Shown piece by piece: positions 1 through 64,000 of a DNA stretch of 64,000 bases. A program made the translations under genes and the position numbers. Numbering within the stretch: position 1 is the first letter of the stretch; the number at the start of each line of letters is the position of its first letter. The DNA comes from Asterochloris sp. CNOR1 (lineage: Eukaryota > Chlorophyta > Trebouxiophyceae > Trebouxiales > Trebouxiaceae), in NCBI GenBank assembly GCA_963969365.1, contig OZ017755.1, positions 620,001-684,000 of the forward strand. Direction: 5' to 3'. The notes below the pieces were generated by a model, which did not search any database, had not been told where the DNA came from, and saw nothing but the letters and a program-made list of their open reading frames with translations.

Positions 1-2857
1 GGTGGCAGCGGTGGCTGACCGCTGGCATCAGGGCTGGCAGCAGCAGCCGCCTGAGGAGCTGCAACTGCTTGCGCTGCCCTGATCCTGCAGGCACCGAGCT
101 CGGTCAGTGCGCCGATGGCACTGCTTGCTGACCACTGTTTGCCAGGGCCTGGTGTGTGCAGCATGGTAGGTACTCACTGGGGTTCCAGGCAGGCAGCCTC
201 CTTGCCGGCGTAAGCACTGTCATACACTGATAAGATGGTGCCGGGCTGCCACCAATTCTGTCAGGCAACTCACTGAGCCTCCAGGCGGGCAGCCTCCTTG
301 CCAGCCCGCTTTCTGTCCTTCCTATCTCTGCTGGCCTTGGTCCGCTGATTCTCATCTGCTTTGAGCTCGAGCAGCCTCTGCAGACGCAGTGGCAGCAGGA
401 TGCTGAGCTCAGCACCCACCTCATGAGCAGGGGACATGCCAGGCAGGGGACATGCTGAGCTTCTGCAACCGCCTAGCAGAGAGTGAGCCCTTCTGCTCAG
501 CAAGGCTGACAGGCACATGGGAGGCGGGCAGGAGATCCGGCTACCTTGCGGTGGTGGTGGTCATATGAGCTCATGTGACCTTCCAGCTCCATGGCGTTCT
601 TGTACTGCTTGTGGCACGTCTGCGCCCAGGGAAAGGGCTGTCAGAACTTAGCACAAGTGCCACCCTGCAGGAAGCCTAAGGGTGCAGAGAACACAACCTC
701 AGGAGCCCAAGCTGAGTTTGTGACGGCTGCCAAGCTCTCACTCAGGCAAGGCAGTGCCTGCTTATCAGTGGTGGTGCTCACATGGACCTTTTCTGTGCTT
801 ATGATGTGGCAAGTCGGCTGCAAGGTGTAAGTGCATATGCATATGGGACCCCAACAGCACAGCAGATCCTGCAAAGCTGCAGGGGCCACCGGCAGCAAGC
901 TGCTGCATGTATGCCCACCTCACAGTAGAAGGTGCGCTGCTGCTGGGCGACCTCCTGGCGAATCTGCTGCTCCAGCTCGGCTTGCATCTACACAGTGCAG
1001 TGGGAAAGGCGGCGTGATAGGACCTGACCGTGGCAGACGCAGTCTGTGATGGGTGCGCACGCAGCAGCCCACTGCGTCTGGCTCCAAGCTGCAGCCTGAG
1101 CACAAACTCCAGGGAAGTGGCCACATGAGCAGCTTGGAAAATTGAGCTCTGAGTGGCGACACTGGAGCCAGTAGGACATGCTGCGAACGGCAGTGCATTG
1201 GTCCCCATGGCAAAGAAGTGTTGCTCATGGTGCAACACGAGCAGGGTCCTGAAGCTGCCCCTTAGCAGTCCTGACAGGACAGCCGCAAGCCTGCTCCCCA
1301 ATGCCTGGACAGCCCAACAGCATCCACTCGGCACATCACAGGCGCCACACAACTCCGCTCGGCAATGCTGGGCAGCCAAGTTATTGAGCTAGAGCCTGGA
1401 ATGTCTGAGGCGCCACCTGAGGTGCGCCCAACATGCAATGTGGCCACTCGCTGCAGCCTACCTGACGGCGGGCAGCCCGTGTCTCGTCCTCGTCTGCCTG
1501 CACCTCCACCTCCAGCTTGCGGCGCACGACGTTGTCTGCGTCTGTGTAGAAGGTGTCCTGCTGGGCCTTGCCCAGCCCCAGACGCAGCCCAGCCTCCACG
1601 CCGCCCTGCACAGGCTCTGTGATGCCTGCAGAAGAGGACCATCTGTGGTGATGAAGCAATAAGGAAGCCTGGCTGCAGGTACAGGTGACACAGCTGACGC
1701 CGCTCTTGCACCAGATGAAGCCTGCGGGCGGCAGGCGTGTGCTGGTATGAAAGTCTGCAGGGTACCACAGGTGCCAACCCCCTCAGCTCTGTGCTGCCTG
1801 AACCAGCAGACCGCTTCTGGTCAGTTAGGGTTTGCCTGCAGCAGTGCATGAGGCGGCGCTGGGGCGTCACGCCTGCAGGTGGCAGGAGGGTACTAATATG
1901 GGCAGCTCCAGGCGACCCAGTGATTGAAGCAAATAGCAGCACCTCTGCAGTGGCTCTGTGATGCATCATAGCACTGTTTCTGTTGACGATGCAGGTGCAT
2001 GTGTGAGGCAGCTCTGGGGACAATGCCTGCAGGTGGCAATAGCGGACTGTACCACAGCGGACTGTACCACCTTCATAGTCAAGGACCAGCTTGGCCATCA
2101 AAAGAGGGTCATCACAAAGCCTGCCGGATGCAAGCTGCCGCAGCCCGGCTCTGCGATGCCTGTGCACGCGAACCTCCAGCTGCTGTCCGAGTGCGCGATG
2201 CTAGATGCAACAAAGAATTGCTCAGGTGTTTCTAGAGCACCCATGCTGGCAATTGCCCCAACAGTGCCGGCTTTGAACTCCAATCCTGTCATGCTGCAGC
2301 TATGCCATGTCTCAAGCCGTGATGCAGCTCATAGTGCATTAAAAAATCACAAGGGGATCCTACCACAGCGTCTTGTACAACCAACTTCCACCCACAGTAC
2401 CACCCCAGCCATACATGTTGCAGCCGGTGTTGTACAAGAAGGACCCACCATGCTCCTCCCGCCCCAGCCCTGCCCCCTTCCACCCCATGCGCTGCATCAT
2501 TTGGAAGCCCTTGTTGTGGTCAGGAATGGGCAGGCTGGCAGAGGCCATTTCTAGCCCGTCCATTTCCAGGGAGTCCTCAGCTCGATGCCCAATGGGGAGG
2601 TGCCAATTGTCGTCATCTGTCGCAGCCTTCAGCCGCTGCTCTCGCTGCACAGCATCAGTGCAACTTTTGATGTACCTCTGGCAGCTGCAGGTCTCAACGA
2701 TCAGATGCCACAGTGCAATGCTGCAGGGCCGAGCGTCCGGCTCAGGCATTGGCCAGGTGTTTGCTGACTCCTCAGAACAGCTTACCAAGTAGTCAGCAGA
2801 GAACTCTTTGCCCCGTCCAGCCTGGAGCTTGCTGTTCACCACCTCGAACTGCTGCAT
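1..2857 (-). CDS. G-patch and C2H2 zinc-finger protein (3' end beyond window)
   Basis: This is probably a nuclear RNA-processing factor: G-patch domains activate DEAH-box helicases, and the YCETCHKQY...DHHHRK finger is the type seen in GPATCH8/ZNF804-like and plant D111/G-patch proteins. Exons on the minus strand are 2857-2786, 2677-2449, 1625-1462, 987-919, 619-545, 377-274 and 84 to beyond base 1, and their phases agree at every joint. The G-patch lies at about residues 78-105 (NKGFQMMQRMGWKGAGLG, then REEHG split by an intron). The finger lies at about residues 170-200 and is itself split by an intron inside the C-x2-C pair. After it comes a Lys/Arg/Glu-rich helix (RKDRKRAGKEAARLEAQ) and then an Ala/Pro-rich tail that leaves the window. 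The start is the first ATG in frame. I infer RNA processing from domain content only. Confidence 0.82.
172..306 (-). repeat. Exon-edge echo: donor end of G-patch gene exon 6
   Basis: Bases 267-306 carry the real exon end and donor (plus-strand reading actcactgagcctccaggc, continuing to 306). Bases 172-209 repeat the same stretch with a few mismatches, about 95 bases further into the intron, including the CAGTGAGT-type donor. The copy is not needed for the reading frame and looks like a degenerate tandem duplicate. Confidence 0.65.
1612..2165 (-). repeat. Acceptor-end echoes of G-patch gene exon 3, plus a 15-base tandem
   Basis: The true exon 3 start reads ggctctgtgatgcctgcag on the plus strand (ending near 1631). 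Similar strings recur upstream in the same intron near 1952-1966 (tggctctgtgatgca) and 2149-2163 (cggctctgcgatgcc). A perfect 15-base tandem pair lies near 2040-2069 (agcggactgtaccac twice). The rest of this 820-base intron (1626-2448) shows nothing else I recognise. Confidence 0.45.
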
Positions 2858-3003
2858 AGTGCTTTGTACCCTGCACTGAGACTGTCAAGATCCCCTCTGC
2901 ACGCAGCACAAGCACATACAGGAAAATAGCCATGGCATACATCAGCCCAGGTTACCTGGACAGGATCAAGAAGAGCCTCTCGAGGGAACAGTCAGTCCAT
3001 GTG

Positions 3004-6000
3004 TAGCAGCGGTGTAGTAGAGCCCCACCCCGCCGGAGTCTTTTTGAGGCATATCAGGAACGTCAAATCAACGATTTCCAACGATTCCATGGGTGCACCC
3101 CGCCAATGCCCCCGCATTCCAGTCCCAATCTCTTCGGGTCTGTGTGGCATTGACAGGGCCAGCAGAAGCCACCCCACTCCTCTCTCACTGCTCTCTGCAG
3201 GTCCCTTCAGGGCCCCAGTTTCGTTCACTTCTAAGGGCTACAGAAGGCTCAAGTGAACGGCTGTCATGCAATGTGTACAGGGACTAAGCAATGCAATATG
3301 TGCCAGCAAGTATCTGTCATGCAAAGGACTGCTGTAGAGATGTTGCAAGGGGTGGGGGTCATCTCTCCTGGGCATCTGTCTGCTTCAGAACTTGCTGCTG
3401 TGGAGGGGTGGGAGGCTGCTAGATGGCAGTACCCAGTCACTTGGTGCAGTGAAGCATCAAGCAATGGATGCAATGCAAGCTGTGCATTGAAGCTCACCTG
3501 CTTGGCCTGGGACTGTGCAGTCGAAATCCTTTGAGAGACCTGGAGGGTGACCCTTTCAGGCTCCTTGTCATCCTTCACCATCCTAACCCCGGGTCATGAC
3601 AGAGATTGGCACCTTAGCAAACTGAGCAAACAGGCTGGTCACATCAAGCTTCTCAGCCTTCCACTATGCAGTGAGCTCATGGTAGACCTCCGCCTTGTAC
3701 TCTTCCTGCAGCAGATATGGGTGTGTCAGCAGCAGGTATTTGGATGTGTGTGGGGGTCAGACAACAGCAGCCAACTCACCCAGCAGTCATTGCAATGGGA
3801 GGCTGTCTCACTCTCAATTTTACCAGCCAAATCTCATTGTCCAAGCTCATCTTAGCAGCACACTGCCTGCAGACCTGTGCTGGGCTTCCCTCATGGCAAC
3901 AGTTGAAGCCTTTGACACAGGGTACCCAGGTGTTGGCGCCAGGGCCCCTCCTGTTCAATCTACTTTTTGCTGCACTTGCAGCACTGCAGCCAACAGTGAT
4001 ACATGAATGAGTTGCAGCAGCACTGGAGGCCTGCAGCAGGCTGCAATCAAGAACACACCTCAAGCTTCCACATCTCCCAACATGGCCCTTCCTGTCAGCA
4101 GAAGCAGGGGGAGCATCAGGCTCCTCCACAATCTCCACTCCTGCCCCATCACTGTCCACCCCAGATCCCTCAGCATTGGCATCAGCCTCAGCTATGGCAG
4201 TGGCAGTCCTGCTCCTCTGTAGCATTCAGCAGATGCCTTAGTGAAGCTTGTAGAAAACAGCCATGGACCACAGCCACAGACCTCACACACCTTTTGGGCT
4301 TCACATGCTCGGATTCACTCTGCCTCTCCTTGCCTGTAGGTGCAACCGCCGCTCCTTCCGGTTGAATCAGCACATAACCAAGCCACAGCTGATGAGCTGG
4401 GGAGTCTGGCATCCGCAGGGTAAGCGGCCAGAAAATACTATAAGTGTAAGCTCAAGAAACCACTTGGAGGTCCTGGGCCTCGAGTGCGCCACCACAACCA
4501 GTATTAGTCGCCGACAGGCGCGTATTTCTTCAGACTGGGAGGCCCGTCGAAGCTCTACAAAAGCAGGTGCAGCACCTGACCTGGTGCTGCATGTGTGTGC
4601 CTGCACAGCAAGCAGCTGACGCTTGTGCAGAAGCTTTCATGTCACCGCATACTATGCTTCCGCTGCAAAATGCCTGGGAGCCCAAAGTTCTGGCAGCATG
4701 CAGCATGTCCTGTACTGCAGGCAGCGGTGCTTCTGCGGAGCCGGTCAGGAGCCAGGCCAGCAGCACCAAACAGGCGTTGTCGTGCAGAAGCAGGTCGTCA
4801 GGTCTCCTGCACTGTTCCTAACACGTGAGTGGAGGTCTGCAGCCTAGGGGCTGCTTTGTCACAGCCATTCTAGAAACTGAGGGCCTCAGCAACTCTTTAG
4901 GGCACTTCTGTGAGGCATCATGAAGCGTCTTGATTCAGCAGCCCACGGACTGGACAACCTCAACGCTGCATGCCCATCTTGCAGACCATGGGCACTGATA
5001 CATACTCCACAGCTGGATCAGTGTGACAGCACTGATTTATCTAACTTCTCTGATCAGTCTGACGGCACTGGCTGCTCTGATTGCACTGGTATGCTGCAGC
5101 ACAAGGTGGCATCCCCGCAGGCCCTGAATGCATGGAGGCCCTGTGTGTTCAGTCTCCTGTCTCACGCTCCATGACATGTGTGTCCTTTGCAATGTGCAGT
5201 GAATGACAGCGTGTGCAAGCGCCACATGATTGCGCCTGACTGGCGCCGGCCATGGGACCGTCTGTGTCCTCAGTTGCTTGGCCAGATGGAACACTGGTTC
5301 AGCTGCTTGGGACAGTGGATGTCGTGCTCCTGCTGCAGGCCAGTCATGGTCACGATCCAGGAGCTGATTGCCAACACTGGCTTGCCACCTGACGGCAGGC
5401 ACCGGCTCTCCAGGGTGATGCAGCAGTACGGCTATGCAGAAGGCGATACACTGGGGACAGAGGTGCAGTGGATGACGCAGGAGACGCTTGAGGCAGCGGC
5501 AAGGGCGGCAGGGTTGGAACCTCCACTGACCTTGAGGGAAATAGGCGCTCTGCTAGTTGCAGCTGGTAAGCGTGTGGTGCTTGAGAGGAAGATGTCTGGA
5601 CTTCCATGCTGCGCAAGGCGCAGTTCCCATCAGCGGCGAGTGGCTGTGCCCTGAGGTTGCTGCTGGCAAAGGCCAACCTGATGGCTGCAGCTGGCGATGG
5701 AGTCTGTCTGAGCAGCAGCCTGCGCTTTGTCGCATTTCTGGCCCTGGCAGGCAGTGCTCTGCAGGTGGACAGCAGCCTTCGCCCCGTACACCATGACATC
5801 AGCGACCTGGCTGAGCGGGTGCTGCTTGTTTGCAGGGGCAGGCACAGACCAGGCGCACAGGGGGGGCCCCGCTCAGGCTCCAGGTGGGAAAGACTCAGCC
5901 GCCTCTCTGTGGCATCCATCCCTTTTAGATCAGAGCCAGCAGCATGCAGCTGGCTAGCAACATTGATGGAGTCGTCCAGTCCCTGACTTGCACCGACCAG

Positions 6001-6913
6001 CGCTGGTCAGCCTGTGAAGCGCAGTGATCTTCTGGCAAGGGGTCTTGCATGACCACAGCGGTCCTGCAATGCTTGAGGGTCTGCCTGGACTGTACAGCCC
6101 GCCTCTGAATCACCTGAAAGGCAGTGCTGCATGTGGCTCCTGCAGAGTGTTGGGGATGGGGTGGTGCTCAGTGACTCCACAACGCTGCAATAGTTCATGT
6201 TGCCAGCTTAGTTGATGTTGCCAGCATGACGCCCTTGCTGCTGTTGGGGTGCAAAGCTTGCAGGGTGGAGCGAACAGGGTGCCCTGTCGCAGGGAGAATG
6301 CAAGCTGGTCTATGGGCCCACAGGCAGCCTGCAGCGGCAGCCTTGCTGCTGGCCTGCAACTCACCGCTTTCACGTCTTGCCCTGCAGGAGGAACCAGTGG
6401 TACTGGTGGCGCAGGGGTAGCCGCCCCTGCAGGTGTGCAAACAGGGCTTTGCCTGCTGGGTTGCTGCTCCAGTTCTGCTTGATGTGTTTCGCGTGGGTGG
6501 TGTCATCCATCCCCAGATATTACTGCATTGCCCTGCACTCCCAGGCATACGATTGCACTGGCCAGCCAACTCCCTCCCACTCTGCAACCTGCTCAGCAGC
6601 TTGGAGCATGCGTAAGCTGTTATGCATGTGCAGGGATGTCAACATCAGCTGCCTCCACAAGCTCAGAAAGTGGCATCGAAGAGGCCCTGCGGGGGGTCGC
6701 TAATCACATGGGAGAGCAGAGCCGTCTGCAGGCCCGGCTGGCGGCTCTGGTGGAAGCTGAGCTCAGCCGCAACGCTGCCATCAACGAAACACTCATCCAG
6801 ATCAAGCAGCAGATGGGCGGCCGTCTGACCAGGTCGGACCCTCACTCTAGCACAGAGGTCAATGCCCCGACTTCCTCGCGTGGCAGTGATGCCCACTTGG
6901 ATGACAACAGTCC
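3004..6913 (+). repeat. Left arm of 3.9-kb inverted repeat
   Basis: Reading this arm forward and 11304-7418 in reverse complement gives nearly the same sequence throughout. The outer edge is at tagcagcggtgtagtag (3004) and the inner edge at gacaacagtcc (ending 6913). I see about one difference per 50-100 bases, plus indels: about 17 bases near 4405-4420 and 6 bases near 6270 are present here and absent from the other arm. Those two account for the 23-base length difference between the arms. No terminal inverted repeats of transposon type and no target-site duplication are evident at the edges, and no transposase is recognisable. It is best described as an inverted segmental duplication. Confidence 0.93.
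5178..5654 (+). CDS. Hypothetical ORF in left arm, 158 residues
   Basis: I do not recognise this protein. The frame is open from MCPLQCAVND to RRVAVP and contains a plausible helical segment (TIQELIANTGLPPDGRHRL, then LEAAARAAGLEPPLTLREIG). It may be one exon of a longer gene, because possible coding stretches also lie near 4450-4850 and 5570-5830 on the same strand. The mirrored copy in the other arm is frameshifted, so at most one arm keeps a working version. No signal peptide or membrane segment is evident. It could be non-coding sequence open by chance in GC-rich DNA. Confidence 0.3.
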   Translation: MCPLQCAVNDSVCKRHMIAPDWRRPWDRLCPQLLGQMEHWFSCLGQWMSCSCCRPVMVTIQELIANTGLPPDGRHRLSRVMQQYGYAEGDTLGTEVQWMTQETLEAAARAAGLEPPLTLREIGALLVAAGKRVVLERKMSGLPCCARRSSHQRRVAVP

Positions 6914-7417: not shown

Positions 7418-7695
7418 GGACTGTTGTCATCCATGTGGGAATCACTGCCACGCGAGGAAGTCGGGGCATTGACCTCTGTGCTAGAGTGAGGGTCCGACCT
7501 GGTCAGACGGCCGCCCATCTGCTGCTTGATCTGGATGAGTGTTTCGTTGATGGCAGCGTTGCGGCTGAGCTCAGCTTCCACCAGAGCCGCCAGCCGGGCC
7601 TGCAGACGGCTCTGCTCTCCCATGTGATTAGCGACCACCCGCAGGGCCTCTTCAATGCCACTTTCTGAGCTTGCGGAGGCAGCTGATGTTGACAT
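7405..7695 (-). CDS. Mirror of the Ser-rich coiled-coil frame, right arm
   Basis: The frame is 96 residues long and almost identical to the left-arm copy over its first 90 residues. It then leaves the arm and stops at SPMAN, so the two copies have different C-termini set by the spacer. It is open throughout, unlike the 158-residue ORF copy in this arm. Its function is unknown and it may not be expressed. Confidence 0.25.
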   Translation of the reverse strand: MSTSAASASSESGIEEALRVVANHMGEQSRLQARLAALVEAELSRNAAINETLIQIKQQMGGRLTRSDPHSSTEVNAPTSSRGSDSHMDDNSPMAN

Positions 7696-15437: not shown

Positions 15438-15574
15438 ACAGAAGCAGCAGAGTTACAGTGATGTTGCAGGAAGAAGGTGCTGGGTGTGTTGCAATGGCAC
15501 AGGAATCCTGAATTATTTCAAGCTGGGGAGGGCATGCAACACGCTACACATGTCACTAAAGTAATGGTGCATCG
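15438..15574. other. Convergent 3' interval, SET and CHD1
   Basis: There are 137 bases between the two stop codons. They must hold both polyadenylation regions. I see no TGTAA signal of the Chlamydomonas type. Confidence 0.5.
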
Positions 15575-36015
<20,441 letters not shown>

Positions 36016-36231: not shown

Positions 36232-39200
36232 ATGGGTAATTCAGTGAGTGGACGCAGAAGGCATCGTCAGGAGCAGAACCAGCAGCAGCAGCAGCAGCAG
36301 CAAGCAACTCAGCAGACTCCCCACTATGGCCCAGTATATCCCCCTCCAGCTGTGCAAGGGCCTGGCCAGCAGGTGAGCCCTGATCTTGTCACAGCCCTCT
36401 AGGCTGCATCTTGGCTACTGCATGACAGTTGCCCTGTGCTGCGCGGCATGGCGCAGTGGCATGTCGCGCCTGCCAGGCACAGCGTCCAGGGCTCTGCCAT
36501 GTGTGGCGCAACCAAAGTCTCATGATGTAATCACACTATCTGTCACAACGCAGGATCCAGGAGGGCGTGGGGGTGCGCTGCCCCATCACCACCAGTGGCG
36601 GCCTTTCAATCCTCCTGCAGCCTTCCCTGGGGTGAGGCCGCCCTGACGTAACACGGCATCACAGGTGGCCCAGGCCTGTGGTGGCCGCACTGAAGCTTCA
36701 CACTCTGCAGTGCTGCTGGCGACTGTGCCGCACCCTGCTTGTGCGGCCGGCACAGTTGATGGACCTGAACACCACTCAAACAGCACCAGTTCTGGCGTAC
36801 TAACTCATCTGCGACCTTGGGCAGCACGTATCCTCAGCAACACGGCGCCACATGGCATCTCCAGCAATACCGTGCACCACACCCCCAGCACCAGCCCTCT
36901 AGGTCGATCTGGTTGGCTCGGTGCTTGCAGGCCCCGCTGCCCCAGGGGCAGCCTGCCTCGCGAGGGGGAGTCCCCCCCGCAGAGCTGACCCAGACAGCTA
37001 CCATCCGCAACGCTGTGAACCTGAAGAAGCACACCCTGAAACTGGTGCCCATTGCGGGGAATGAGAACAAGCTGTCAGTGCAGTTCATGTTTGACGCTGC
37101 AGAGCCCTGCAGGTGAGGCTAGTGTGAAGAAGGTATATGCACTGGGCAGCTGCTGTGAGCAGCAGCACATTCTGCCTTGTGGAAATGGATGCACAGTCCC
37201 TGATGAGGACTTAGGGCCACCAACAGGCTGCCGTGTGGAGGGTGGCTGCACAGTCACTACTGAGGATGCTGACGGCAGGGTGTTCACAGTTGATCTGGCT
37301 GCAGCAGCATCTATCTGTCTTCTGTAGGCGCGCTGAAGACAGGGGCTGGTAGGGCTGTCTTGACCATCCCCAAAATCAGCAGCAGCGGCAGTAACGGCAT
37401 TGCTGCCGTGTGCAGGTTGACTGCCTTTGTGCTGGCTCGGGAGGAGCCTGCCGAGGCCTGCAGACTCACCCCACTCAGCAGCGGATCAGCGCTGGGCCCA
37501 TGCATGTATGACAAAGGGGTGAGTCACGCTGAGATGCTTCACTGCACCCTGCTTGGTTCCCCGGGACTTTGTTTTCCTGTCTGCTTGAACTTGCCTGTCT
37601 CGCCAGTTTCTTGATAGCAGGGTGCTGTAGCCCCCACAATGCATTGCCTGCCTGCAGTTCAACCACACCTTCCCCCGACAAGGAGCCCCAGATGCAGAGC
37701 AGATCATCCTGGACTTGGCAAGACTCGATGTGCAGAAGCTGTCTGTGGCTGAGGGCAATTCCTACCCGCTGGTGCTACGTCTAGAGACCATCTCAGCCAA
37801 GGGGCTTGAGGAGGGGCACACGCTGCAGGTGCAACCAAGGCTGCTTTGTTCCTGTCAGCTAGCTTGTTGATGCCTGGGGACTGTCTCAGCAATCGGGGTG
37901 GAGGGAGGGGCATACCCTGCAGGTGCAACCCAGGCCCTCTTTGCTTTCCGTCACCAACAACCAAGCCAGTGGGGCTTGGGGAGGCCAGGCAACCTTGCTT
38001 TGCTGCTTGAGTGCAATAAGTTGTTGCATAGGAACCATCTCAGCCAAAGCGCTCTTCGAGGGGCGCACCCTTCATGTGAGGGCAGCTGTGTGGTTCAGCA
38101 TGCTGATCTCTGGACACTGCCTTTGTGTCGACATTTGCGAGGTGGTGGGACCACCTCGCATGAAGTACATGATGTGAAACAGCCTGCTGCATACATTAAG
38201 CTGCCTGCTTGCCGACTGTGCCTGCAGGAGCTGGAAGTGGGGCAGATGCAGAAGGTGTGGATTCAGTCGCAGACCACGTTTGCCAGCGTGGCAAAGAATG
38301 AGGATGGGCACTTTTGCTGCAAGGTGGGCCCCGGCAATGGGCATCTGGAACTCTGCCGCTCTCTTGCTCTGTGAGGGTTTGCAGGCAGACATGACTCTGC
38401 AGTCCTGCATCCCTGCATCCTGCCTGTAGAAGCTGGCTCTGCAGCTCTGTTGCTTGGTCTAGATGTCAGGCATGCAGCCTGGAGACGCGTGGTACCTGCT
38501 CTACCCCTGTGCCTTGCCTGCAGATGTTGAAGCAGAAGATCTGGTTTGAGGGGTGCTCCTTTGAGCTCCAAGAGATCTATGGCATGGAGCACTCGCAGAG
38601 GGATGGGCGTAAGACCGAGGTCAGCTCTGCACAGCTGTCAATGCCCTGCCACTGGCGGGCAGTATGACACATCCCTGCCTGGCACAGGAAGGGCACAGCA
38701 TGGCCCTGTAAGCCCAATGCAGACGGGAGGGCTGAGCTCACCCGCCTGTCCCGAGCCGCTCTGTAGAGCATGGCAGCCTGCTGAGGCTGCAGTCAACCTT
38801 TGCGGCTGTGGCGCCTGCGCAGTTTTGTCCGGCACTATGCATATGTGAGGGATTGGCACGCTGGGTGCTGACAACCGTCAGATGCATGGTCGTGGCTGTG
38901 GTGCAGAAGAAGAAGGAAGGTGGCTTGGAGGAGCACTCCTGTGTGATCTCAGCAGTCATCGCAGCTTCTGAAAGATGTGGGTCACACATGAGCCATGTGT
39001 GGGGTGCTTGATGTAAGGTGCTGCTGTGCCATGGTGCAGGAGGGGTCAGTGCTGCAGCCTTGCAGCCAGTGACAACAACACAATCAGCTGCTGTCACCCG
39101 CCCTCAAGGGGGGCTTCTCTTCTGCAGAAGGAGAAGGAAGAGGACTTGGAGGAGCGCCTGTGCGTGATCTGCCTGGTGAATGACCGCAACACGACAGTGC

Positions 39201-47500: not shown

Positions 47501-50500
47501 AGAGAAGCACAGCCAAGGCAGGGACTGGAAGGAACGAAAAGAAGATCTTGTCGGCAGCCAACATAGGGGTGAGCATGGGGACCCCTGAGAATTGTGTTGG
47601 CAGCTGACACAGAGGTGGGGTATGGCGTCCCTGCCTGAAGACTGCTTGACCAGTTGCACCTCGATGCTTCCAGCTCACGCCATCCTGACAGGCAAGGCGC
47701 CTGGCCGGGTGTCAACCCCAGCAGCAGCCAGCCCAGTGGGGAGCTCAGTCCCTCTGCTGGGCAGCTGCTCAGGCTTGTGTTGTGACATGGTGGGCTGTGC
47801 AGCCAGTCCCCAGGGCGGCATGCCCGGTGCTGAGCAGGCCCGTCGAGATGCCTGGCACCGTGATACGCGCCATGGGGCCCCTCCTTCACCCCCCCTGGGC
47901 GATCTTGCACTGCCTCACTTCTGCGTTCTGACCCACAGTGCACTGTGTAAGCTGCTGTGCGTCTGCTGGGTGCAGGTGATTGTGAGTCACCCAGCCAATG
48001 AGAGCAGCTTGGACATTGCCCAGCAGGATGACGCCACGGCGGAGGATCCGGCAGTGACCAGCCAGGCTGCAGGGCTGGCTGACGTGGTGACACCTGCTGC
48101 TGGGATCGATAAGCGTGTGGCTGCACAACTTGAGGTCAAGGTACGGCATGGCCGTGCAGCAGGGGCCCTGCAGCCCAGTGCTTGAGACTGGCACAGCGTC
48201 CTGCTTGCAGACTGCAGCCTCTGCTGGCAGCATGCCTGCACCTGGGCCACAGCAGGTGCGCAGTCTGACTCTGGTACAGCCCCCACACCAGGCCCTGTGC
48301 CGCAGGGGTGTGGGTGCGCAGTCTGGTGTGGGTGCAGCCCCGCACTAAGCTCTGTGCTGCAGGGGTGTGCTTTGCTGCCCCCTTAAGCCTGCCTCCCCAA
48401 GCCTGCCTGCCCAAGCCTGCCTCCCCAAGCCTGCCTCTTCAAGCCTGCTTGACTTTCTCTTCTGCTGTGCAGGCTGAGGCAGCAGCTGGAGCTGACAGCC
48501 AGGACGAAGATGACGAGATGCCACCAGCTGAGCCCCTGCAGGCTGCACCAGCCAAGCAACCACAGGCAGCAACACTTGCTGGTGCCAAGGCGGCAGAGAA
48601 GGCCAAGCAGAAGGCAGAGGGCAAGCAGAAGAAGCAGAAGGAGCCCGGGGTGGCGGTTGAGAAAGATGACAAGAAGCGCAAGCGTGCTGCAGATGGAGCG
48701 GCTGCGGCTGCAGCAGGCGCTTCACCAGCACTCAAAGAGGCTGCTGCTGCTGCGCCTGGGGACATCGCCGCTGGGGATGTCCAGAAGCCTCTGACTAAGA
48801 AGCAGCGCAGGTCAGGGCACATGATTTTCTCTCTGGCAGGCTTTTGCAGAGGGAGTCTCAGCAGCCACCTGTGCGGTTGCGCAGGCCACACCAGCCATAT
48901 GTGGTGCCAGGCCTCAGCTGAAGATGGCTGTGGCTGCTGGGCTGCATGTGGGGTCCTGACATCTGTCCCTTCAGAAATTTCAGGCACACTTCTCTCGGGG
49001 TGGCTCTGAGGGGTGCTGCTGGCTGTGCAGGGAGCCGAAGAAGGAAGGGTTTGCTGCTGCTGCTGACAAGGCTGCACTGCGCGCTTGATTCCACACATAG
49101 ATTGAAAGGTTTTGCAAATGACACGCTCAGAGAGCCGCTGATTGTGCTGGGGAGTTGAAAGCCAACCGGGCAGACTGCAGTGCATGCTTGGCATGGCAGT
49201 GCCTCTACGAAGAGCTAGAAATGAGGCTGCTGAGGCCAAGCAAGGATGTCTTCTGCAGGCTTTGACGTGCATGTTGAGGTCCCTGACAAGCAGAAGGTTG
49301 CCTGACCTGCGTGCGCGCTTGCAGTGCTGACTGGTCGCTCTGTTTGCAGGGAGCTGAAGAAGAAGGAGGCCACTGCTGCCAAGGCTGCCGAGGCAGGGCC
49401 CGAGGCAGCGGCTGCTTCTGCACAGCCGGAGGCGAGTGGCGTCAAGGCTGAAGGTGCACTTGGGGTCCTTCATCGTTTGACCTGCTGCTGACAGGGATGC
49501 TAAGGACCAGGCCCCATAAGTAGCAGAGCAATCAGATCCCTTACACAGGTGGCTTCATGGCGCGCTATGTGCTGCATGCGTTCTGATGGACAGGGGTCAT
49601 CTTGTTGCAGAGCAGATCGGGCCCCTCTGTGCAACCTTTTGAAAACAATTGAGCACCTTCTGTGAGCATAACGCCGGAGTGCAAGCTTTGCACTCCAGCT
49701 GTGCACCATTGCCGACTGCTGTTGCCCTGTGTCCTGCTGCAGGCTCCCAGAAGGGCAGGGTGCAAAAGTATGAGAATGGGTTCATTGTCGAGAATGTGCA
49801 CATGGGGCCCCCCGCTGGCAAGGTGGGTGCTGTTCATGCTGCATGGAGCCCCCTTGTGTTTGGTTTCTGACCCACGCAAGCTGTGTGGTCAGCAGGTCAG
49901 GTAGCCACATAGCACCAATGCGTATCTGCAATGAGAGGCAGGCTGCATGTTGGCGTCTGGCTGAGGGCTTGGCCTTTGAGGCCATGAAGCTGTATTATTC
50001 TCTTCTGCAGCATTGTGCCAGCGCCTGCACTGCGCAGGACACACTGTGCTCTGCTTTGCAGATGGCACGGCCAGGAGGTGCCTGCCCTCCCCTGCAGGGT
50101 CCTGTCAGCCCGTTGGTTTTGCTGTGCTGTGCAGTGCCTTACATGAAATGGCTGACGCCCACTTGCAGCATGCGGACCAGACCTGAACCAGCCCTGACAC
50201 CTGTGCTTTGGCCCCTGCAGTCAGCCAGGTCCCAACAGCTGTGTAACTACCCCTCAGGCCGCCCTTAGAGGTGCTTCGACAGCTGCACTTTCCCCTGTGC
50301 AGATGGCCAAGCCCGGCAAGAAGGTAGTGGTGCAGTATGTGGGCAAGCTGGCCTCCAACGGACGCATCTTTGATCAGACCAAGGGCAACAGCACCTTCAG
50401 CTTCCGCCTGGGCGTGGGCGAGGTCATCAAGGGTGAGCTGGCTGCCCCACAAGACTCACAACCATGACTGCTGCAAGGCTGCAGTGAAATGGCTGCCCCC

Positions 50501-54536: not shown

Positions 54537-57345
54537 TCATTGCTTGACGTCAAAGGCAAATCCCTGCAGGCAACATTCAAGCCTCACTTGAGCTGCAGGG
54601 TGGCCCAACAAGATACTCCATACAAGTGGATACAGGCTAATGCAGGAGCTAGAGAACACTCAGGCTCACCAGCTTTGGCCTTGTGTCTGGCTTGCGCACA
54701 TCGACCTGCCCAGTCACACCCATCCTAATCTTAGGCCTAACCTCCTGCACAATGTAGGTGGGCAGGTTCACAGTTTCTGAAGACCAGCCTATGTGTACAC
54801 CAGGCAAGCCTGCCTTCACAGCACGCATGAGGCAGCCAGCAGGCAGCAGAGTACGCATCAACTGTGCATAGCTTGTACCTGTGACTGCCCATCCAAGCGG
54901 CTCAGCAATACCCCAGGGGGCAGGCAAACTGCTGCAGGACCCACCTGCTCATACAGAATGGTCAGCAGTCCGCCGGTGTCGATCCTGAGCTTGCTCACAG
55001 CACCGTCCTGCAGTCTGTGGGAGTAGCCCACGACGGCCTTGGTGTCGCCGCCGTTGATGGGCCGGGTGACCTCTGCGCCAGCTGTGCGGGCAGCATCCAG
55101 GTTGTGTGCATAGTGCAGCTTCAGGGTGTTGCCTGCAGCATGGTGAGGCTGTATGATCATCAGCTGCAGACCAAGGGTTTCCTGTGACAGAACAGGGCAA
55201 GTGCTTGTCAGCAAAGGGGCTCCAAGAACTACAGGCTTCATCAGCCTCTGCACAACGCAGCTTCACGGTGTTCCTGCAGAGAGACACGGTGCCTGTGAGC
55301 AGGGCCACAGCAGATACGCTGCATCATTGTGTGCCACACAGTGTTGCCTTCCATGCAAGCAGCAGGCAGAGATTGTCAGCAGAAGCTGCACCTGTATAGC
55401 ATGACTAAAATTTGCAGTGACAAGCTGGCTCCTTGACAAGGCTGTCCTGTACCACCAGCAGATCAGCATCAGCTACATTGCAGCTTGATGCTCCCTTGCA
55501 CAGCACTGAACGCTCTGATCACAGCAGCACATGCTGACCGGTATGTAGCCTTGTGCATATGAGCTGGCGCAGCAGCTGCATCACTTAAGGTTGCATGCCA
55601 GCATTGACACCCTGCCTGTCAGGCAATGCAGGTGGTGCTACTGTGTCAACTGCAGAGAGCAGGAGGATGCTGGCTGTTCAGCTTGCGGCCCTTGCCAGCC
55701 ATTCCAGCAGCCAGTCCCAAGCTTGACGCAGCATCTGCGCATGCCTGCGAGCAGCCCTGTCTCAACAGGATGCACAGCAAAGGCAGCTCAGCTGGGTAAC
55801 ACAGGATGCTGCAGCCTGCCACACTGAACCAGAGCCCAGCGGGAGTATGAAAGCATGTGTGCACCCACCCCTGTCTGTCAGGATGCCGCCTAGCTGGTAG
55901 TCCAGGCCATGGTAGCCCAACCCTGCGCTCCAGGCAGTCACATCCGCCTTGTTGGTGTCGTAGGTGGCATCACCGCCCACCACAACAACCTCCTTGCCTG
56001 CACACAGTAGCAGAGGCAGCAATCAGGCGGCTGGACACAAGTGCAGGTTTGTCCTGTGCAGAGTCAGGTCAGCAGGATACTGGCTGGAGCAGTGCAGATG
56101 CCTGCCACTGGCCGGTAGAGGTCTGTAGTAATGCTAGCTGCCTGATGCAATCCGGGCAAGCAAGGCCACAGCAGCACCCAGCGCAAGCTCACCATCAATG
56201 CCGAAGCCATCCTTGCCTGCACATCACAACAGGCATCAGTCATATTGATTTGCAGCATGCAGTGAGCAGCGCCATTGGAGTCTCAAGCATGCGTTTCCAG
56301 CAAACACACCTGTGGAGGCAGAGATGTCGAGCTTGGGGCTGTTGGTGAGCCCCAGCTTGCTCTTCAGGGTGAAGTAAGGTGCTGAGTAGTCCAGCGCGAG
56401 CTGCGGGGCCATGCAGCAGGGTGAGCAAAAGGAGCACAGCATTACAGCTGAGAGATGCAGAGCAGGGGGGGGACCCCAAGTTCAGATCTGCAGCAGGTGC
56501 GTGCAGCCATGCAGAGGAGCGCCAAAATGCTGGACACAGCATTGCCCACAAGGAAGGTCTACACACCTTGCCAGAGTTCTCGTCCGGGATGGTGCCGCTC
56601 AGTGTAACATTCACGCCAGGAGCAGGGTTCTTCAGGGTGGCTGTTCCCAGCACCTGTAGGAGAAGCAAGGGCTTTGCCTCATGCAGACCATACACAGGCA
56701 GCAAGCGCTGAAACTGGCCCATACAGGCCCCACGGGGACGCCCCATGGGGACGTATTGCCTTGAAGGCCATGCATCGGCGGCCAGATGACGCACCTGCTG
56801 CTCATACAACTACGAAAGGGTTTGTAGGGCATGCAGAGCTGAGGCACCCGAGCTGTACAGCGGTCACTAGCAGTCACAGACAGGCAGGCAGCATCAATTA
56901 GTGCTTGGTGCCCGCACACCTTCCCGTCTCCCAGGATGCTGGCTGTGAAGCCATACTTTTCAGTGCCATAGGCTGCCTTGATGATGCTTTCGAGCCTCTC
57001 GCCCTTGACAGAGGTGGTGGTGCTGAACTCCTGCAGGCAGGGCGGATGCACTGGAATCTTCTGTCTTGCCAACAGGCTGTGGCACAGAAGGCTGCGCACT
57101 GGGGAGCACACGAAGACACCAGGCAGCGCTCACCACTCCATCTGCAGTTTTGCTGGTGAGCTGCACCATGTTATCAAACTGGAATGCCCCAGTCTTGCCT
57201 CCATAGAGCAGTTCTGCAGGCAGGGGCCAACCTCAGCCGGCGCCCTGCATACAGGCAGGGCATGCATGTGGCTGGCAGGAGCTGAGCCAGCCCTCACACC
57301 TCTGGTGGCACGGTCGAGGTCCGTGAAGCCTGGGATTCTTGACAT
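54537..57345 (-). CDS. VDAC: Mitochondrial porin (VDAC)
   Basis: This is a 19-stranded beta-barrel channel of the mitochondrial outer membrane for metabolites and ATP. Ten exons (57345-57300, 57213-57134, 57030-56920, 56653-56567, 56400-56310, 56216-56193, 55997-55869, 55132-54945, 54744-54670, 54563-54537) give 285 residues, phases consistent throughout. It starts MSRIPGFTDLDRATRELLYG, the usual amphipathic N-helix region. The eukaryotic porin signature area is GLDYQLGGILTDRG followed by NTLKLHYAHNLD. The C-terminus KLGFAFDVKQ is reached only by splicing a 9-codon last exon. An in-frame ATG lies 8 codons upstream of the chosen start (57369); I prefer the inner one because porins start directly at this motif. 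Confidence 0.93.
55104..55280 (-). repeat. Exon-edge echo x2: acceptor end of VDAC exon 8
   Basis: The real border (plus-strand gtgcagcttcagggtgttgc then ctgcag, ending 55138) is echoed at about 55246-55279 (acgcagcttcacggtgttcc then tgcag). The copy is about 140 bases into the 735-base intron 7 and keeps a CTGCAG acceptor. Confidence 0.72.
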
Positions 57346-57634: not shown

Positions 57635-60600
57635 TCAGTCATAGCGCCCCTTGTACTTGGTTTGAAGGTTGCGAATCACAGCGTCAACCACTTTGGAGGT
57701 AGTGCCGGTACCCTTGAGATCTGGCGTCAATATACTCTTGTCGCCAGCCTTGATGACTGCCAGCGTGGCATTCTCCAGCCTGCATTGCACACATGCCCAT
57801 TGAAGCCAATCCTTGAGCCATGCAGTCAAAAAAAGCCGATCATATTGCTCATGCCATCCTCAAGGGTGTGCTGAACTGCAGCTTGGCAGTCACTGTGCTC
57901 TACAAAAGCCAGTCCCCAAGCAACCCCACCTGTCTGAAAAGTCTGGCAGGTTCATGTATCTGAAGGCCATGGCCATGCTCAGCAGCATGGCAATAGGGTT
58001 TGCAACGCCCTTGCCTGCAGCACAGCAGGTCAGCCACTGCTTGCAGGAGGGCCTTCTTCCAGGCAGCTGGCACATCGCCTCAGCACATGGGTGAAGCATG
58101 CAGCTGCGCAATGCAGCTCAGCCCAGGCCTTCTGCCCGCCCACAGGGCAGCTCACCAGCAATGTCCCTGCCAACATGCCGCGCCCCCTGCTCAAAGATGG
58201 CTGCTGTCTCACCAACATTGACACCTGCAGAGTAGCAGACTCCCTCTGAGAAGCTCAATCTCTGGACCGCACTTGGTGCTGGCCTGGCCCATGTGACTCA
58301 AAGGGGGCAATGTAGGCCAATGCATGGTTCACAGCAAATCAGGAGCTGCACAAGGGGGCAGGCAGCTCGCAGCTGGATCATTGCAGCAATTCCTAGGCAC
58401 CTGCCACCTGCTCAGGCAGCTCTTCACAATGCTGTGAAGCACAGTTTGCATGAACTGCAGCAGAGGCACTGAATGTCTGCAGGGCCTGACCTGGAGTGAC
58501 GCCTGCACCACCTGTGAGGCCGCTGGCAATGTTGGAGACAAGGTTACCATACAGGTTGGGCGTGACCAGCACATCGAATTGCTCAGGGTGGCTCACAAGC
58601 TGCATGCCTGCAAATGGGGGGGGGTGCACATGAGCCACCAGATCAGGGCATGCAGACTTGCTCTGGCATCTGCACCGTTTAGAGCAGCCCTGTGGGTTTG
58701 GCGGGCAGTGCAGCGCAGGCTGGCATGACCACGCAGTACTGCCATGTTCAAGCATTCAAACAGCAAGCACGTAAGGGGACGCAAGGGGACAGCGTCACCC
58801 TTCTCTCAGCCAACACAAGAATGCTGCTCAAGGCATGTCAAGCTGCACTGACTCTCTGCAAAGCCAAACATGCTCACAGGTGTTGTCCACAATCATCTCC
58901 TGAGCTTGGATTGTTGGGTACTGCTTGGCCACCGCTCTGAACTCCTACAGGTAGCAGGATCAACAGCAGTCAGAACATTGTCAGGTGCACTGCATCGGCA
59001 CTGCCCACAGAGTATACTGGCAAAAGCACTGATTGAAGTGCATTGCCACCAATACTCAGGTTGCATAAGCACCAGACTCAGCAGAAGTTGTTTTTGGGTG
59101 ATGAGTCTGCTCTGCCGCATGACAGCCTGGAGCTTGCGACGCCTCACCTTCAGGAACAGGCCATCTGACAGCTTCATGATGTTGGCCTTGTGCACTGCAG
59201 TGACCTTCTTGCGGTTGTTGAGGAAGGCATAGCCAAAGGCATACTCTGCTGTGCGCCGCGACTTGAGCTCTGTGATGACCTGCAGCCAGCAAGGTCTCTT
59301 GACGCAGTGTGCGTACTCAGTGTGAATCTCAGCAGGCAGTGTCAAGACTGAAACAGCTTTTTCCATCTGAGGCCAGCACATCAAGGCCACAGGCGGCATG
59401 AGCAGATATTGTGCAGACCCCTGCACAAGGGCAGGCCGCAGGCACTGCCCATCCCCGCGCAAGCTGTGCAACAGCTTTGTGACCAAGCAACTGCAAATTG
59501 TGTCAATGGGATGCGCAGCTGTCACTCCCAAACTGACTGTGCACGGCCTGCGCGAGCAGGATGGAGGCCAGCAGGACCACAGTCAGAGCACATGCTCCTC
59601 ATGAAGTGCTCACCTTCAGCGACTCAATCACATCTGGTACTACCTCATGCTCCAGCCCACTGTACTCGCCCTCTGTGTTCTCCCTGCAGGGTGAGAGCCC
59701 CTGGTGAGCACTAGCAGCACCGCAGCGCCTGGCCAACGCAGGACCAGAAATGCAAGAGCTGTCCTGAGCGGCGTCAACCCACTTCTGAGACGCAGGACTT
59801 GAAAGGCCCGCAGCTTCGTGCACCTCATGCAGCATTGTAAGCACCGGCGGAATTGATGATGTGGCAAAGAGCAATCGCGATGCATGAGGGAAAAGGGCGT
59901 GCCCCAAGGAGTGTTGATGCAATGAAGGCAGGGCTGACCTAATGACCACAATGTCGACGTCTTTGTGGCGAGTTGGGAGGCCGCTCATGCTGAAGCCATG
60001 CACCAGGTTGACATGCAGGTCCAGCTGCTTGCGGAGCTGCAGGTCACAGGCGCAGCAGTGAGCTGCTTGCTGCAAGGGACATGTGCTGGCACCTCTTGAC
60101 ATATACAGATCCGGCGAGGGCCTCGAGCTGCCGCCTCTGCCAGGATGCACATGCTGCGGGGGACTCATACCTCGCTCCCATACACATGCTCTAAGGGACT
60201 CAAAGGTGCCAGCCCTGCTGCTTTGCCCATGACCAAGCAGGATGCAGACCGGAGGAACAGCACTGGTGCATCAAGAGAGCCAGGAGCACAGTATGCAAGC
60301 CCACCCTTGCTTGTGCTGCACAGAACCGTGGACAACCTTACCAGATGGAGAGTGTCCAAGCAAAGCAAGCCCTGTGCGAACACATGACAAGGCACTCCTC
60401 TGCCCACCTGGACGTTCAGGCTCTCTGTGGCTGTGCTCTTGGACAGCGGCGTGAACAGGGTGCCCTTCAGGCACACCCCTGTGCGAAGAATGGATTCCAG
60501 CACAGCCGGGGGAACAGACTGCACTGGCATGCCATTTGGTGCCGTGCCGTGCAGGTCGTCAAACCTGCATTGCAGAGGCCGCAGTGAGCTGTGCTGCAGT

Positions 60601-61237
60601 GAGTTGTGCTGCAGCAATGCGCGATCTGCAGTGCTCATGCAGCTGAGGAAGTGAGCCATATTTCCAGCAGGCACTTAGCATGCTGCTGCTGCGGGCAACA
60701 ACATGCCCACATGGGCCTGGCACAAAGCATCCAAGCATCAGCTGGCAGCATTGCAGAGGGGAGGGCTGGTCTGACAGGCAGGTGCTCAGCTTAGCTGCAC
60801 AGGCAGGGCGCTAGTGCAGGTCATTGGGACCAGTGACTGCTTGCCTCTCCCAGCGAATGGGGGCATCCATTGCAGCCACCACTTTCTGCACGGCGTCGCA
60901 GGTCTCTGGCCCAATCCCGTCGCCTGGGATGAGGGTGATCTCCTGTGGCTTGGCGTCGTTCACGTGGGGCACATAGGTCATTAAGCACCGTGCCTGCAGT
61001 TGTACAAGCTGACCTGATAGCAGTCTGCACCTGAGGTTGAGGAAAGCACTGGCAAGGCTGCGCTGGGCAACATGTGCAGCTGTGCAAGCAGGTACCCAGG
61101 TGACAGCAATGTGCCTTGAAATACATCCATTGTCAGGTTGTCAGGCCAGCCAGGAGAGAGGTTCTGTTCACCTGCTGTGCTGCATCTCGAATAGCCTGGC
61201 CCCTGGAGGCCAGGGCTTGCGCAGCCCGGCCTAGCAT
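57635..61237 (-). CDS. IDH1: NAD-isocitrate dehydrogenase, regulatory subunit
   Basis: This is a mitochondrial matrix TCA-cycle enzyme subunit (yeast naming). Eleven exons (61237-61172, 60993-60845, 60564-60408, 60036-59939, 59683-59614, 59279-59148, 58944-58878, 58607-58491, 58224-58156, 58014-57930, 57779-57635) total 1,155 bases, 384 residues. The N-terminus [20 protein letters not shown] is a typical matrix-targeting helix. Family motifs include [51 protein letters not shown] and [20 protein letters not shown]. The stretch [15 protein letters not shown] has Val-His where the catalytic partner has Arg-Pro, marking it as the non-catalytic subunit. The second intron has a GC donor. Confidence 0.95.
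60565..60844 (-). other. GC-AG intron in regulatory IDH gene
   Basis: On the minus strand GGGAGAG|GCAAGC joins ATGCAG|GTTTGAC. This gives WERFDDLHG, the conserved WERF block of the family. The frame without splicing reaches a stop soon after. Confidence 0.82.
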
Positions 61238-61601: not shown

Positions 61602-64000
61602 ATGAGGAGGGCAGCACTGGGAGCTGCTGCTCAATTGAGGAATGCTGCAATCCAATCTGGGGAGAGGAGCTTTGCCTCAGAGGTTCAGCCTGTCACAGCA
61701 ACACTCTTCCCAGGTCTGCCCCTCATATCTCACCTGCATGGCTCAGCTTCATTTGTAGTGTCCAGGCGCAACATTGTCAGGCACTGACAGCTTGCTGTGG
61801 CTGTCAGGACATACTACAATTGCACAATGTCGGGCATGCGCAGCAATGAGCCAGGCAGAGCTGCATTGCTGTGCTGTTGCAGTCTAATGTGCTGCTGGAT
61901 GGTCGCAGGTGATGGCATTGGCCCCGACATTGCAGAAGCAGTGAAGACAGTGTTCAGTGCTGCCAAGGCCCCAATCGTGTGGGAGGAGCAGATAGTGGGC
62001 ACCACTGTGGATTCCCGCACCAACAGCATGGTGTCCCGGGAGAATCTGGACTCCGTTCTTGTGAGTGTAGCGTCAAGCGCTGTTCCTCGCTTGCTGCACT
62101 CTGCACGCTGAAATCCCTCTGCATGCTGAGCGCCCCACTGCTTGCTTCACAGCACTGGTAGCTCAATGGCCTGCTTGCTTGGGGCCAGCAGCGTCCCTGA
62201 CATCAGGTTGGCAGGCAAGCAGGGCTGGACTGGCCTGGCAAGTGCCGATTTTCACAGATGGACGCTCAATCTGCTGCCTGCACTGACCAGCCGTTGCATG
62301 CCGGCCAGGCAAATCCACATGTACTGCTTGCCCTTTGGCTCTGGCACAGCTCTGCGCTGCACCGCTACCTGCTTATTAGCATGCAGTACGCCAAGCTCAA
62401 AGGTGTCCCCTGGCTGCCTCTGCAGAAAAATAGGATTGGTTTGAAAGGCCCCATGGCCACCCCCATTGGCAAGGGCCACCGCTCGCTGAACCTGACCCTC
62501 CGCAAGGAGTTGCAGCTGTACGCCAATGTGCGCCCCTGTTTCAGCGTGCCAGGCTACAAGACGAGATACGACAATGTCAACCTGGTCACTATCAGGCACG
62601 TTTCCGCATTGTATTGGCAGGGGGCAGATGAGCCAGGTTCACAGAGGGCTCAGCGGCACCCGTGTGCCTGTTGTGCAATGCATGGTGCTGGATGACAGCT
62701 GTCATCGATTGTGTAGTATTCTTGGCTGCAACATGTCACCATGAGTCATGCCTCCTGCAGCAGACATGACTGCCAGTTGGTCTTCATGGGGCTTGGTGGG
62801 GCTGTGCACTGTCACCTAGCTGCACAAGCTGGGCCTGCTGAAGCGAGCCTCTCCAGCTGTCCAGGGGTAACGCTTGCAGGCTGGCCGGCCTAAAAGAATC
62901 CTGGGAGGGGTGTGCAAGGGAAGCAGCATGCATTTGCGCCTGATGTGGAGATGTGATGCAGATGATTCATCCCGGGCAAGAGGGTCCCTTTGCAGGAGAG
63001 CAGCTGAAGTGCAGGCACACCTCCTGCAGGGGTCACACTGGGGGTGTAAATGCTCAGGGAAGACACAGAGGGTGCAGCAGGAGAGTGCATGTGCCCTGGC
63101 TGCAGGGAAAACACAGAGGGTGAGTACAGTGGGCTGGAGCATGAGGTCATCCCCGGCGTGGTGGAGTCTCTAAAGGTGGGCCTGACTCTGAGGCTTTGCT
63201 GGGCCTGAACCCTCAGGTGTGCTTGCTTGGCTGTGGCCCTCTCTCGGACAAAAGCAACAGCACCTGGCCGTCCCCAAAACAGGCTTCACAGAAGCCTCGC
63301 TGGATGGGACCTTTACGTGCTGCTCTATGTCATCACGTTGGACGTGTGCAGTGCCTCAGCTTGGAGCTGGGAAGGCACAGGACAGGCTCTGAACCATCTG
63401 GACCTTCCCCGCTGGTCACTGTGCGGGTTGCCAGCACCCATGTCGTGGCCCACAGTCCTCCTAGGCACAGGACAAGTTTCTATGCATGCCCCTGCAGATT
63501 ATCACACGTGCAGCCAGCACCCGCGTGGCCGAGTATGCCTTCAAATATGCTCAGGACAACGGCCGAAAGAAGGTGTCAGCCGTGCACAAGGCCAACATCA
63601 TGAAGCTGACGGATGGGCTGTTCATAAAATGCTGCCGAGAGGGTGCGCCTGCATTGCCCTTCCCCTTAGCCTGCACGACTGTACGGCCTGCCACCCTCTG
63701 CTTTCTGTGCTCTGAATCTGGTCCCCGGGTCTTGTTGCCACTGTCTGCCTTCAGACGTGCCCCACACCAGCCTGCACGGCTTACGTATGCTGCTATGGGC
63801 GCAGCACATTGCCCGCACCTGGGTGTGACTTGCTGTGGGCTTTGCTGGACGCACTTGGGTATCATGCTCTTTCTGCATGCAGGTATCAAAGTCTGTCGCG
63901 CAGTAGGTACTGACATAGTGCTAGCTGCCCTGCGTAAAAAGGAAGTCACCCCAACATTCAGACGCAAGAGATAATTGTAGCCAGCATACTCAATGCAGCA
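61602..64000 (+). CDS. IDH2: NAD-isocitrate dehydrogenase, catalytic subunit (3' end beyond window)
   Basis: This is the catalytic partner of the neighbouring gene (yeast naming). Exons 61602-61713, 61909-62060, 62426-62595, 63106-63175 and 63498-63642 have consistent phases and cover about the first 216 residues of an expected 360-370. The presequence [20 protein letters not shown] is followed by [15 protein letters not shown]. Substrate-binding residues are all there: [20 protein letters not shown] (the Ser-Asn-Arg-Arg set) and [19 protein letters not shown]. Helix [19 protein letters not shown] follows. After the donor at 63643 no further family sequence appears before the edge; the rest is probably intron. 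An in-frame stretch at about 63881-63974 ([13 protein letters not shown] ... RRKR, stop) does not resemble IDH. Confidence 0.93.
62596..63105 (+). other. GC-AG intron in catalytic IDH gene
   Basis: ACTATCAG|GCACGT joins CTGCAG|GGAAAAC to give VTIRENTEGE. The regulatory gene has an intron at exactly the same codon and phase, but there with a GT donor (ATTAG|GTCAGC, 59938). Confidence 0.85.
63055..63125 (+). repeat. Exon-edge echo x2: acceptor end of catalytic IDH exon 4
   Basis: The real start cag|ggaaaacacagagggtgag (63103 on) is preceded 48 bases upstream by cagggaagacacagagggtg (63055-63074). Splicing to the copy would shift into [10 protein letters not shown]..., so it is a plausible decoy acceptor. 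Confidence 0.75.

Follow-up and report, generated by a model that had tools for sequence, protein, structure and literature searches.

Intron gain by tandem genomic duplication is said to have been the subject of work by Rogers in 1989, by Gao and Lynch in 2009, and by Hellsten in 2011, and a study of rice by Vaughn and Bennetzen from 2014 reportedly dealt with small tandem duplications at DNA breaks. A review covers intron gain by such duplications, also described as internal gene duplication (PMC3443670). In potato, a boundary between intron and exon in an RdRp gene has been duplicated in tandem (Ma et al. 2016, PMC4974935). In the stwintrons of Lipomyces, a copy of the donor lies inside the intron, and the authors suggest break repair as a possible origin (PMC7138796). 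Small tandem duplications at DNA breaks are also described as a common class of mutation, direct and local (PMC8355091).

In the alga Asterochloris sp. CNOR1, a first-pass annotation of one 64-kb stretch of DNA (64,000 nucleotides at 620001-684000 of contig OZ017755.1, which we will call the window) reported that introns of many genes hold degenerate copies of the edge of the neighboring exon. We will call these copies echoes. Among the matches listed from the open-licence literature, we found no description of echoes at intron borders as a genome-wide feature, which is weak evidence of absence.

We examined the window together with 270 kb from 17 other places, or 334 kb in total, from a genome of 56.38 Mb in 21 contigs. 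Each of the other places lies on a different contig (17 contigs, among them that of the window), and adjacent stretches were joined. One sampled stretch (L024, C11:1200001-1210000) was all N and was excluded from every count.

When the window was compared to itself with BLASTN, 25 of the 26 direct-repeat matches were less than 500 bp apart. Across the 334-kb sample, there were 131 direct matches at 50-300 bp (108 after filtering for low complexity), versus one inverted match at the same centre distance (none after filtering). A further 39 inverted matches at the shortest range (17 after filtering) were self-overlapping palindromes. As would be the case for tandem duplications, the repeats are direct and local. 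An ungapped scan gave a similar picture: with scores of 16 or above, there were 289 direct pairs at distances of 20-600 bp, versus 13 at a control distance of 3000-3580 bp, and with scores of 18 or above, there were 223 direct pairs versus 4 at the control distance and versus 2 inverted pairs with non-overlapping arms. The commonest offsets of the direct pairs were 80-120 bp. The echoes are confirmed as real, and they occur beyond the window. Their counts are well above those from the control, instead of being no higher than for randomised sequence, and 15 of the 18 stretches (window included) have at least one pair that crosses an exon border with a score of at least 18.

Exon calls are the predictions of our own hidden Markov gene finder, which was seeded with 30 peptides from the window that were judged by eye to be conserved and was then trained on the 334-kb sample. 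It called 58 genes in this sample. The 55 genes with at least three exons hold 521 exons; their predicted exons have a median length of 134 bp, and their introns, 324 bp. The splice consensus is CAG/GTGAG for donors and CTGCAG/G for acceptors (the slash marks the border). We classified pairs only in genes with at least four exons (500 exons and 452 introns), and we removed low-complexity pairs with a trinucleotide-entropy filter. Two errors of the gene finder are known: it called a false exon at 22942-22989, which is an echo, and it fused genes into one at 7405-36015. Also, the gene end that it placed at 270 (G-patch) is probably false. Alignment of the CHD1 model to the solved CHD1 (PDB 9ear) shows no break or insert at the junction that has four echoes. 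The domain of the FKBP model matches structures of FKBP53, and the models for IDH, VDAC, RING, and MAK16 match their Pfam families.

The echoes in the window, with the used sites of CHD1 to which some of them correspond, are as follows (the offset is the distance between the two copies):

172..209, minus strand: echo of a G-patch donor; the used copy is at 268-305, and both copies contain GTGAGT
1786..1821, minus strand: echo of G-patch acceptor 1625; offset 172, weak (score 16)
18881..18972, minus strand: echo of the CHD1 donor of exon 19017-19186; offset 105, 85% over 92 bp, with a further copy at 18826-18879
18986..19077, minus strand: used CHD1 donor of exon 19017-19186
19618..19645, minus strand: echo of CHD1 acceptor 19549; offset 90
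19696..19750, minus strand: second echo of CHD1 acceptor 19549; offset 194
20952..20980, minus strand: echo of CHD1 acceptor 20727; offset 241
22417..22463, minus strand: echo of CHD1 donor 22539; offset 120
22705..22735, minus strand: used CHD1 acceptor and exon start, border 22731/22732
22807..22829, minus strand: echo of the CHD1 acceptor at border 22731/22732; offset 93, AG kept
22882..22912, minus strand: echo of the same acceptor; offset 177, 97% identity over 31 bp, AG kept
22939..22999, minus strand: echo of the same acceptor; offset 258; the part that was called as an exon (22942-22989) is contradicted by the protein alignment
23135..23171, minus strand: farthest echo of the same acceptor; offset 443, splice site lost
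25612..25676, minus strand: echo of CHD1 acceptor 25546; offset 105
30151..30174, minus strand: echo of CHD1 acceptor 30076; offset 93
30984..31017, minus strand: echo of CHD1 acceptor 30860; offset 149
33706..33789, minus strand: echo of donor 33972, which belongs to the N-terminal region predicted for the CHD1 gene; offset 219, with another at 33861-33902 (offset 102)
37904..37935, plus strand: echo of RING-gene donor 37828; offset 94, GT kept, with another at 38029-38078 (offset 247)
38902..38949, plus strand: echo of RING-gene acceptor 39128; offset 221, AG kept
47549..47574, plus strand: echo of FKBP donor 47462; offset 106, with another at 47591-47617 (offset 152)
49026..49060, plus strand: echo of FKBP acceptor 49350; offset 319
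55249..55272, minus strand: echo of the VDAC acceptor region at 55132; partner at 55107-55130, offset 142, weak (score 16), with the border outside the match
63055..63074, plus strand: echo of a catalytic IDH acceptor; used copy at 63103-63122, offset 48, 19/20 identical, P = 0.010

The predicted CHD1 gene has echoes at nine borders. The echo in catalytic IDH was found by a separate alignment of six IDH borders (P = 0.010, 0.50, 0.020, 0.27, 0.85, and 0.25), and the general scan probably missed it owing to the complexity filter. The first-pass annotation had named seven genes with echoes, and we see them in G-patch, CHD1, FKBP, catalytic IDH, VDAC (weakly), and the gene that was named LUL. The seventh, GT14, has no usable gene model; its domain is only marginally recognized (PF02485, 22.2 bits versus a cut-off of 23.4). 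The name LUL holds up as far as a RING domain, which is the only domain recognized in the calls for this gene. Echoes were also said to occur on both sides of introns and usually to keep the splice site. Both statements describe the larger sample as well: 49% of echoes are of acceptors and 51% are of donors (n = 136), and among pairs within 5 bp of the border, AG is present in 41/55 and GT or GC in 37/46.

The window and the sample contain other kinds of repeats. A 3.9-kb inverted repeat (3004-6913 and 7418-11304) has arms that are 98.8% identical and a spacer of 504 bp. The arms differ by 17 substitutions and seven indels of 1-16 bp. We found no new duplications between these arms: the two indels of at least 2 bp (16 and 6 bp) are not tandem. 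At 32693-32896, in the predicted N-terminal part of the CHD1 gene, there is a 39-bp minisatellite with about five copies. Two IDH genes lie head to head, at 57635-60981 on the minus strand (regulatory-type) and 61899-63971 on the plus strand (catalytic-type), with subunit types as in the first-pass annotation. Two pairs of their exons still match (59608-59689 with 63100-63181, 84%; 59154-59249 with 63528-63623, 78%). Short contiguous duplications form a separate class, with units of 23-33 bp that are 86-100% identical and lie mostly within introns. Examples are at 45741-45803 and in the sampled stretches L004, L005, L018, L020, L023, and L026.

Direct repeats prefer exon borders. Among the 223 pairs with scores of at least 18, 75 cross a border, versus 18.8 expected from random placement. 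In contrast, pairs that lie deeper than 10 bp in an exon are not enriched (26 versus 37.5 expected), so echoes are not equally common at exon-interior positions, and neither are intron-only pairs (63 versus 94.7). If we consider just the 162 best-scoring exons, then 52 pairs cross a border versus 7.2 expected, 20 are interior versus 18.4, and 57 are intron-only versus 82.6. The enrichment of crossing pairs is steady at 3-4x as the score threshold rises from 16 to 30. At least one echo was found for 78 of 904 borders (~9%), and 19 of these 78 have two or three echoes, while 5.2 would be expected to have two or more. The excess at borders and the excess of direct repeats at short distances support the first-pass proposal that exon-intron borders are repeatedly duplicated locally and that one of the copies serves as exon. 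Part of the border excess is a bias, because the exon is conserved: a pair that includes an exon diverges at one rate, while a pair within an intron diverges at two, so an exon-derived copy can be recognised for more time than an intron-derived one.

The anatomy of the pairs suggests how much sequence was copied. In 136 exon-intron pairs, homology continues beyond the matching core on the border side in 30% of cases and on the exon side in 8%, with 5% expected by chance. Because flank homology is so much more frequent on the border side, similarity tends to extend from the interior of the exon across the border. The 68 introns with an echo have a median length of 506 bp, versus 290 bp for the 384 introns without, although an echo also needs room. 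If the offset is subtracted from the intron length, then the median is 374 bp, which is like that of ordinary introns, and just 2/86 of the remainders are under 80 bp, versus 14.4 expected for random positions. Of the effects that had been proposed for echoes, shifts of exon borders over time and alternative splice sites may occur, and intron lengthening is supported: in this comparison within one genome, the introns with echoes are longer, and removal of the offset leaves an ordinary intron. Both the border-side homology and the normal residual length fit a duplication of the whole offset. The echo itself is free of coding constraint, and third positions of the exon have changed more: in genes with a start codon, the mismatch rates at codon positions 1, 2, and 3 are 0.225, 0.209, and 0.310. 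In the 334-kb sample, CpG is kept less in echoes (0.53-0.56) than are other bases (0.69-0.81), which suggests methylation-type decay.

The two copies are rarely close together if they span a border. Offsets under 80 bp occur in just 4 of 88 border-crossing pairs, as compared to 49 of 134 non-exonic pairs; after length weighting, 11.5 would be expected (P = 0.016). Conversely, 36 crossing pairs have offsets of 80-130 bp, versus 18.3 expected (P = 0.0003). Introns under 80 bp are rare (9/452). We infer that this minimum spacing near 80 bp reflects selection against a second splice site that is too close to the first. The echo in catalytic IDH, at 48 bp, is an exception.

The splice dinucleotides of echoes are often intact. 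We counted matches that include at least 2 bp of the intron and whose used site is AG or GT, which is 85 of the 136 exon-intron pairs. AG or GT was kept in 74 of these 85 echoes, versus 55.9 expected from a simulation at matched identity (p = 7e-6, with equal base changes and with echoes treated as independent). Retention was 20/20 in the window and 54/65 elsewhere, and it did not depend on the identity of the rest of the match (11/12, 21/25, 20/23, and 22/25). With one echo per border, AG or GT was kept in 57/64, as compared to 76/136 when the same dinucleotide was counted at other positions of these matches. For matches that include 8 bp or more of the intron, retention is weaker: 40/50 (p = 0.0015 versus the square of the identity), with p = 0.02-0.08 versus six of eight same-dinucleotide controls and p = 0.39 and 0.78 versus the two narrowest GT controls (n = 50). 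At positions -3 to -5, echoes show no clear advantage in retention over the simulation. Overall, it is likely, but not proven, that the AG or GT of echoes survives beyond neutral decay. This survival hints that echoes may be used in splicing.

Given these observations, we lean towards the view that local direct duplications arise across exon borders, with one copy spliced and the other decaying in the intron, where its AG or GT survives longer than it would under neutrality. The excess of direct pairs shows that the genome gains direct local duplications, mostly of 80-300 bp, in its non-coding parts. If a duplication covers a border, then the copy beside the body of the exon would still be spliced, and the other would become part of a longer intron. 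That the used copy is the one beside the exon body is inferred from the topology, the conserved protein models, and the intron lengths. The copy in the intron would then decay without coding constraint, and since the exon and its splice signal are fixed as the intron copy decays, it is mainly the exon edge that stays recognisable. Copies closer than about 80 bp, which is the size of the shortest introns, are mostly absent, probably since they would confuse the choice of splice site. Because the survival of AG and GT is above neutral, the splicing machinery probably still recognises many echo sites to some degree, or did so until recently. Judging from the literature, the duplications would most likely be side effects of the repair of DNA breaks, which is known to produce small tandem duplications. 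A stronger version is that selection maintains the splice sites of echoes for their use by the spliceosome, whether as alternative sites or as relay sites, in a genome with thousands of border duplicates whose distance from the copied site is mostly no shorter than a minimal intron. We consider this version possible but doubtful, and “thousands” is an extrapolation from the 9% of sampled borders.

How far could duplication go with nothing acting on the echo? In a purely neutral account, the exon is a frozen reference and copies of its border simply remain visible for longer. We simulated uniform tandem duplication of whole units, with the exon and splice signal conserved, and measured the result with the same pipeline. 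At 0.2-0.35 substitutions per site and with long-tailed indels, the simulation comes close to the observed share of exon-intron pairs (0.68, observed 0.61), identity (0.788, observed 0.773), and length (43, observed ~41). But across six parameter sets, it predicts too much flank homology, both on the border side (0.40-0.63 versus 0.29) and on the exon side (0.27-0.38 versus 0.10). As a sign that the whole unit between the copies was duplicated, flank homology gives a mixed picture: it was above the 95% level of the null in 51% of intron-only pairs (n = 43) and 24% of exon-intron pairs (n = 108), versus 53-83% and 61-73% in the simulation. The simulation also predicts too little focus on the border: 0.27-0.35 of matches end at -15 to +5 bp, and no setting that we tried gave more than 0.39, versus 0.52 observed. 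With the retention of AG and GT as well, we think that a purely neutral process is unlikely. The flanks count against any plain tandem duplication, including the one that we favor, because there are pairs with 91-100% identity over 21-36 bp whose flanks lack any clear similarity, and plain duplication should not yield near-identical cores with dissimilar flanks. Those abrupt ends, which are seen for many cores, even highly identical ones, and the 86 of 136 exon-intron pairs without detectable flank homology on either side, would be explained if just 20-60 bp around the splice site was copied into the intron or was duplicated around filler (by template switching, or by end joining with filler DNA). 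If such copying were random, however, it would take exon interiors too, and the abrupt pairs cross the border 67% of the time, versus 25% expected, and lie more than 10 bp inside the exon 16% of the time, versus 67% expected. Introns also seem to be longer by the whole offset rather than by the core. Border preference would require an additional cause, and short copying seems to us as improbable as pure neutrality. Random templated insertion was set aside, as exon-interior pieces are not enriched and introns are longer by the whole offset.

Direct repeats around a spacer could also be long target-site duplications, left by a transposon or introner that inserted at exon borders. This is very unlikely: the length of the repeats is highly variable, and matches between stretches are no denser than matches between far parts of the same stretch. 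When three introns with echoes were searched against the genome, only the intron itself and its own exon edge matched (simple repeats and words that are very common are not covered by this search). We give slightly less credence still to the idea that echoes are an artefact, whether of low-complexity sequence, of matches between splice motifs, or of errors in exon calling. The window does have CAG/CTG-rich stretches, and the gene finder did err (at the end of 270-377, at 22942-22989, and in the fused gene). But only 4 pairs occur at the control distance versus 223, the enrichment persists from a score of 16 to 30 and grows with the score of the exon, and genes that are confirmed by homology carry echoes. 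Intron gain at AGGT motifs is disfavored as well, as GT or AG is not preferred and the far splice site has no echo. Exons with an acceptor echo begin with GT in 9/40 cases, versus 97/412 for other exons; for exons with a donor echo, the last two bases are AG in 27/35 cases, versus 280/417 for others (p = 0.26); and all 99 echoes are farther than 10 bp from the opposite splice site of their own intron.

If echoes arise by local duplication across borders, then they show how introns can grow and how spare splice sites can originate. In a genome with about 9% of its exon borders copied, the growth of introns could be watched. Such a genome would also allow the spliceosome's tolerance of a near-identical second site to be measured by distance, and the existence of a minimum spacing to be tested. 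And echoes are a warning for gene finders, as they may be called as exons, which happened once here (22942-22989).

The closest precedent is the duplication in the potato RdRp gene. There, as in the alga, a direct duplication takes in the last part of an intron along with the beginning of the exon that follows. A second acceptor with its exon edge thereby lies in tandem, and splice signals are inherited (PMC4974935). But the potato case, as described, is one recent event with RNA support; its two copies are both in use, with a new intron as the result (PMC4974935), while the alga has many diverged copies, of which one is apparently used, as far as can be seen from the DNA alone. Intron gain by tandem duplication, as reviewed, also involves duplications within genes that carry splice sites and alter intron content (PMC3443670). 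Unlike in that process, existing introns of the alga are lengthened, with no preference for AGGT and no echo at the far splice site. The duplications reported in Lipomyces stwintrons are 4-7 nt, and splicing intermediates were shown (PMC7138796), whereas the echoes of the alga are about 20-90 bp, are mostly 80-300 bp apart, and are known as genomic sequence only. Duplications at DNA breaks share the direct and local form of the echoes, and the description in PMC8355091 does not link them to exon borders. As compared to these systems, what is new in the alga is the frequency of the copies, their minimum spacing near 80 bp, and the retention of their splice sites.
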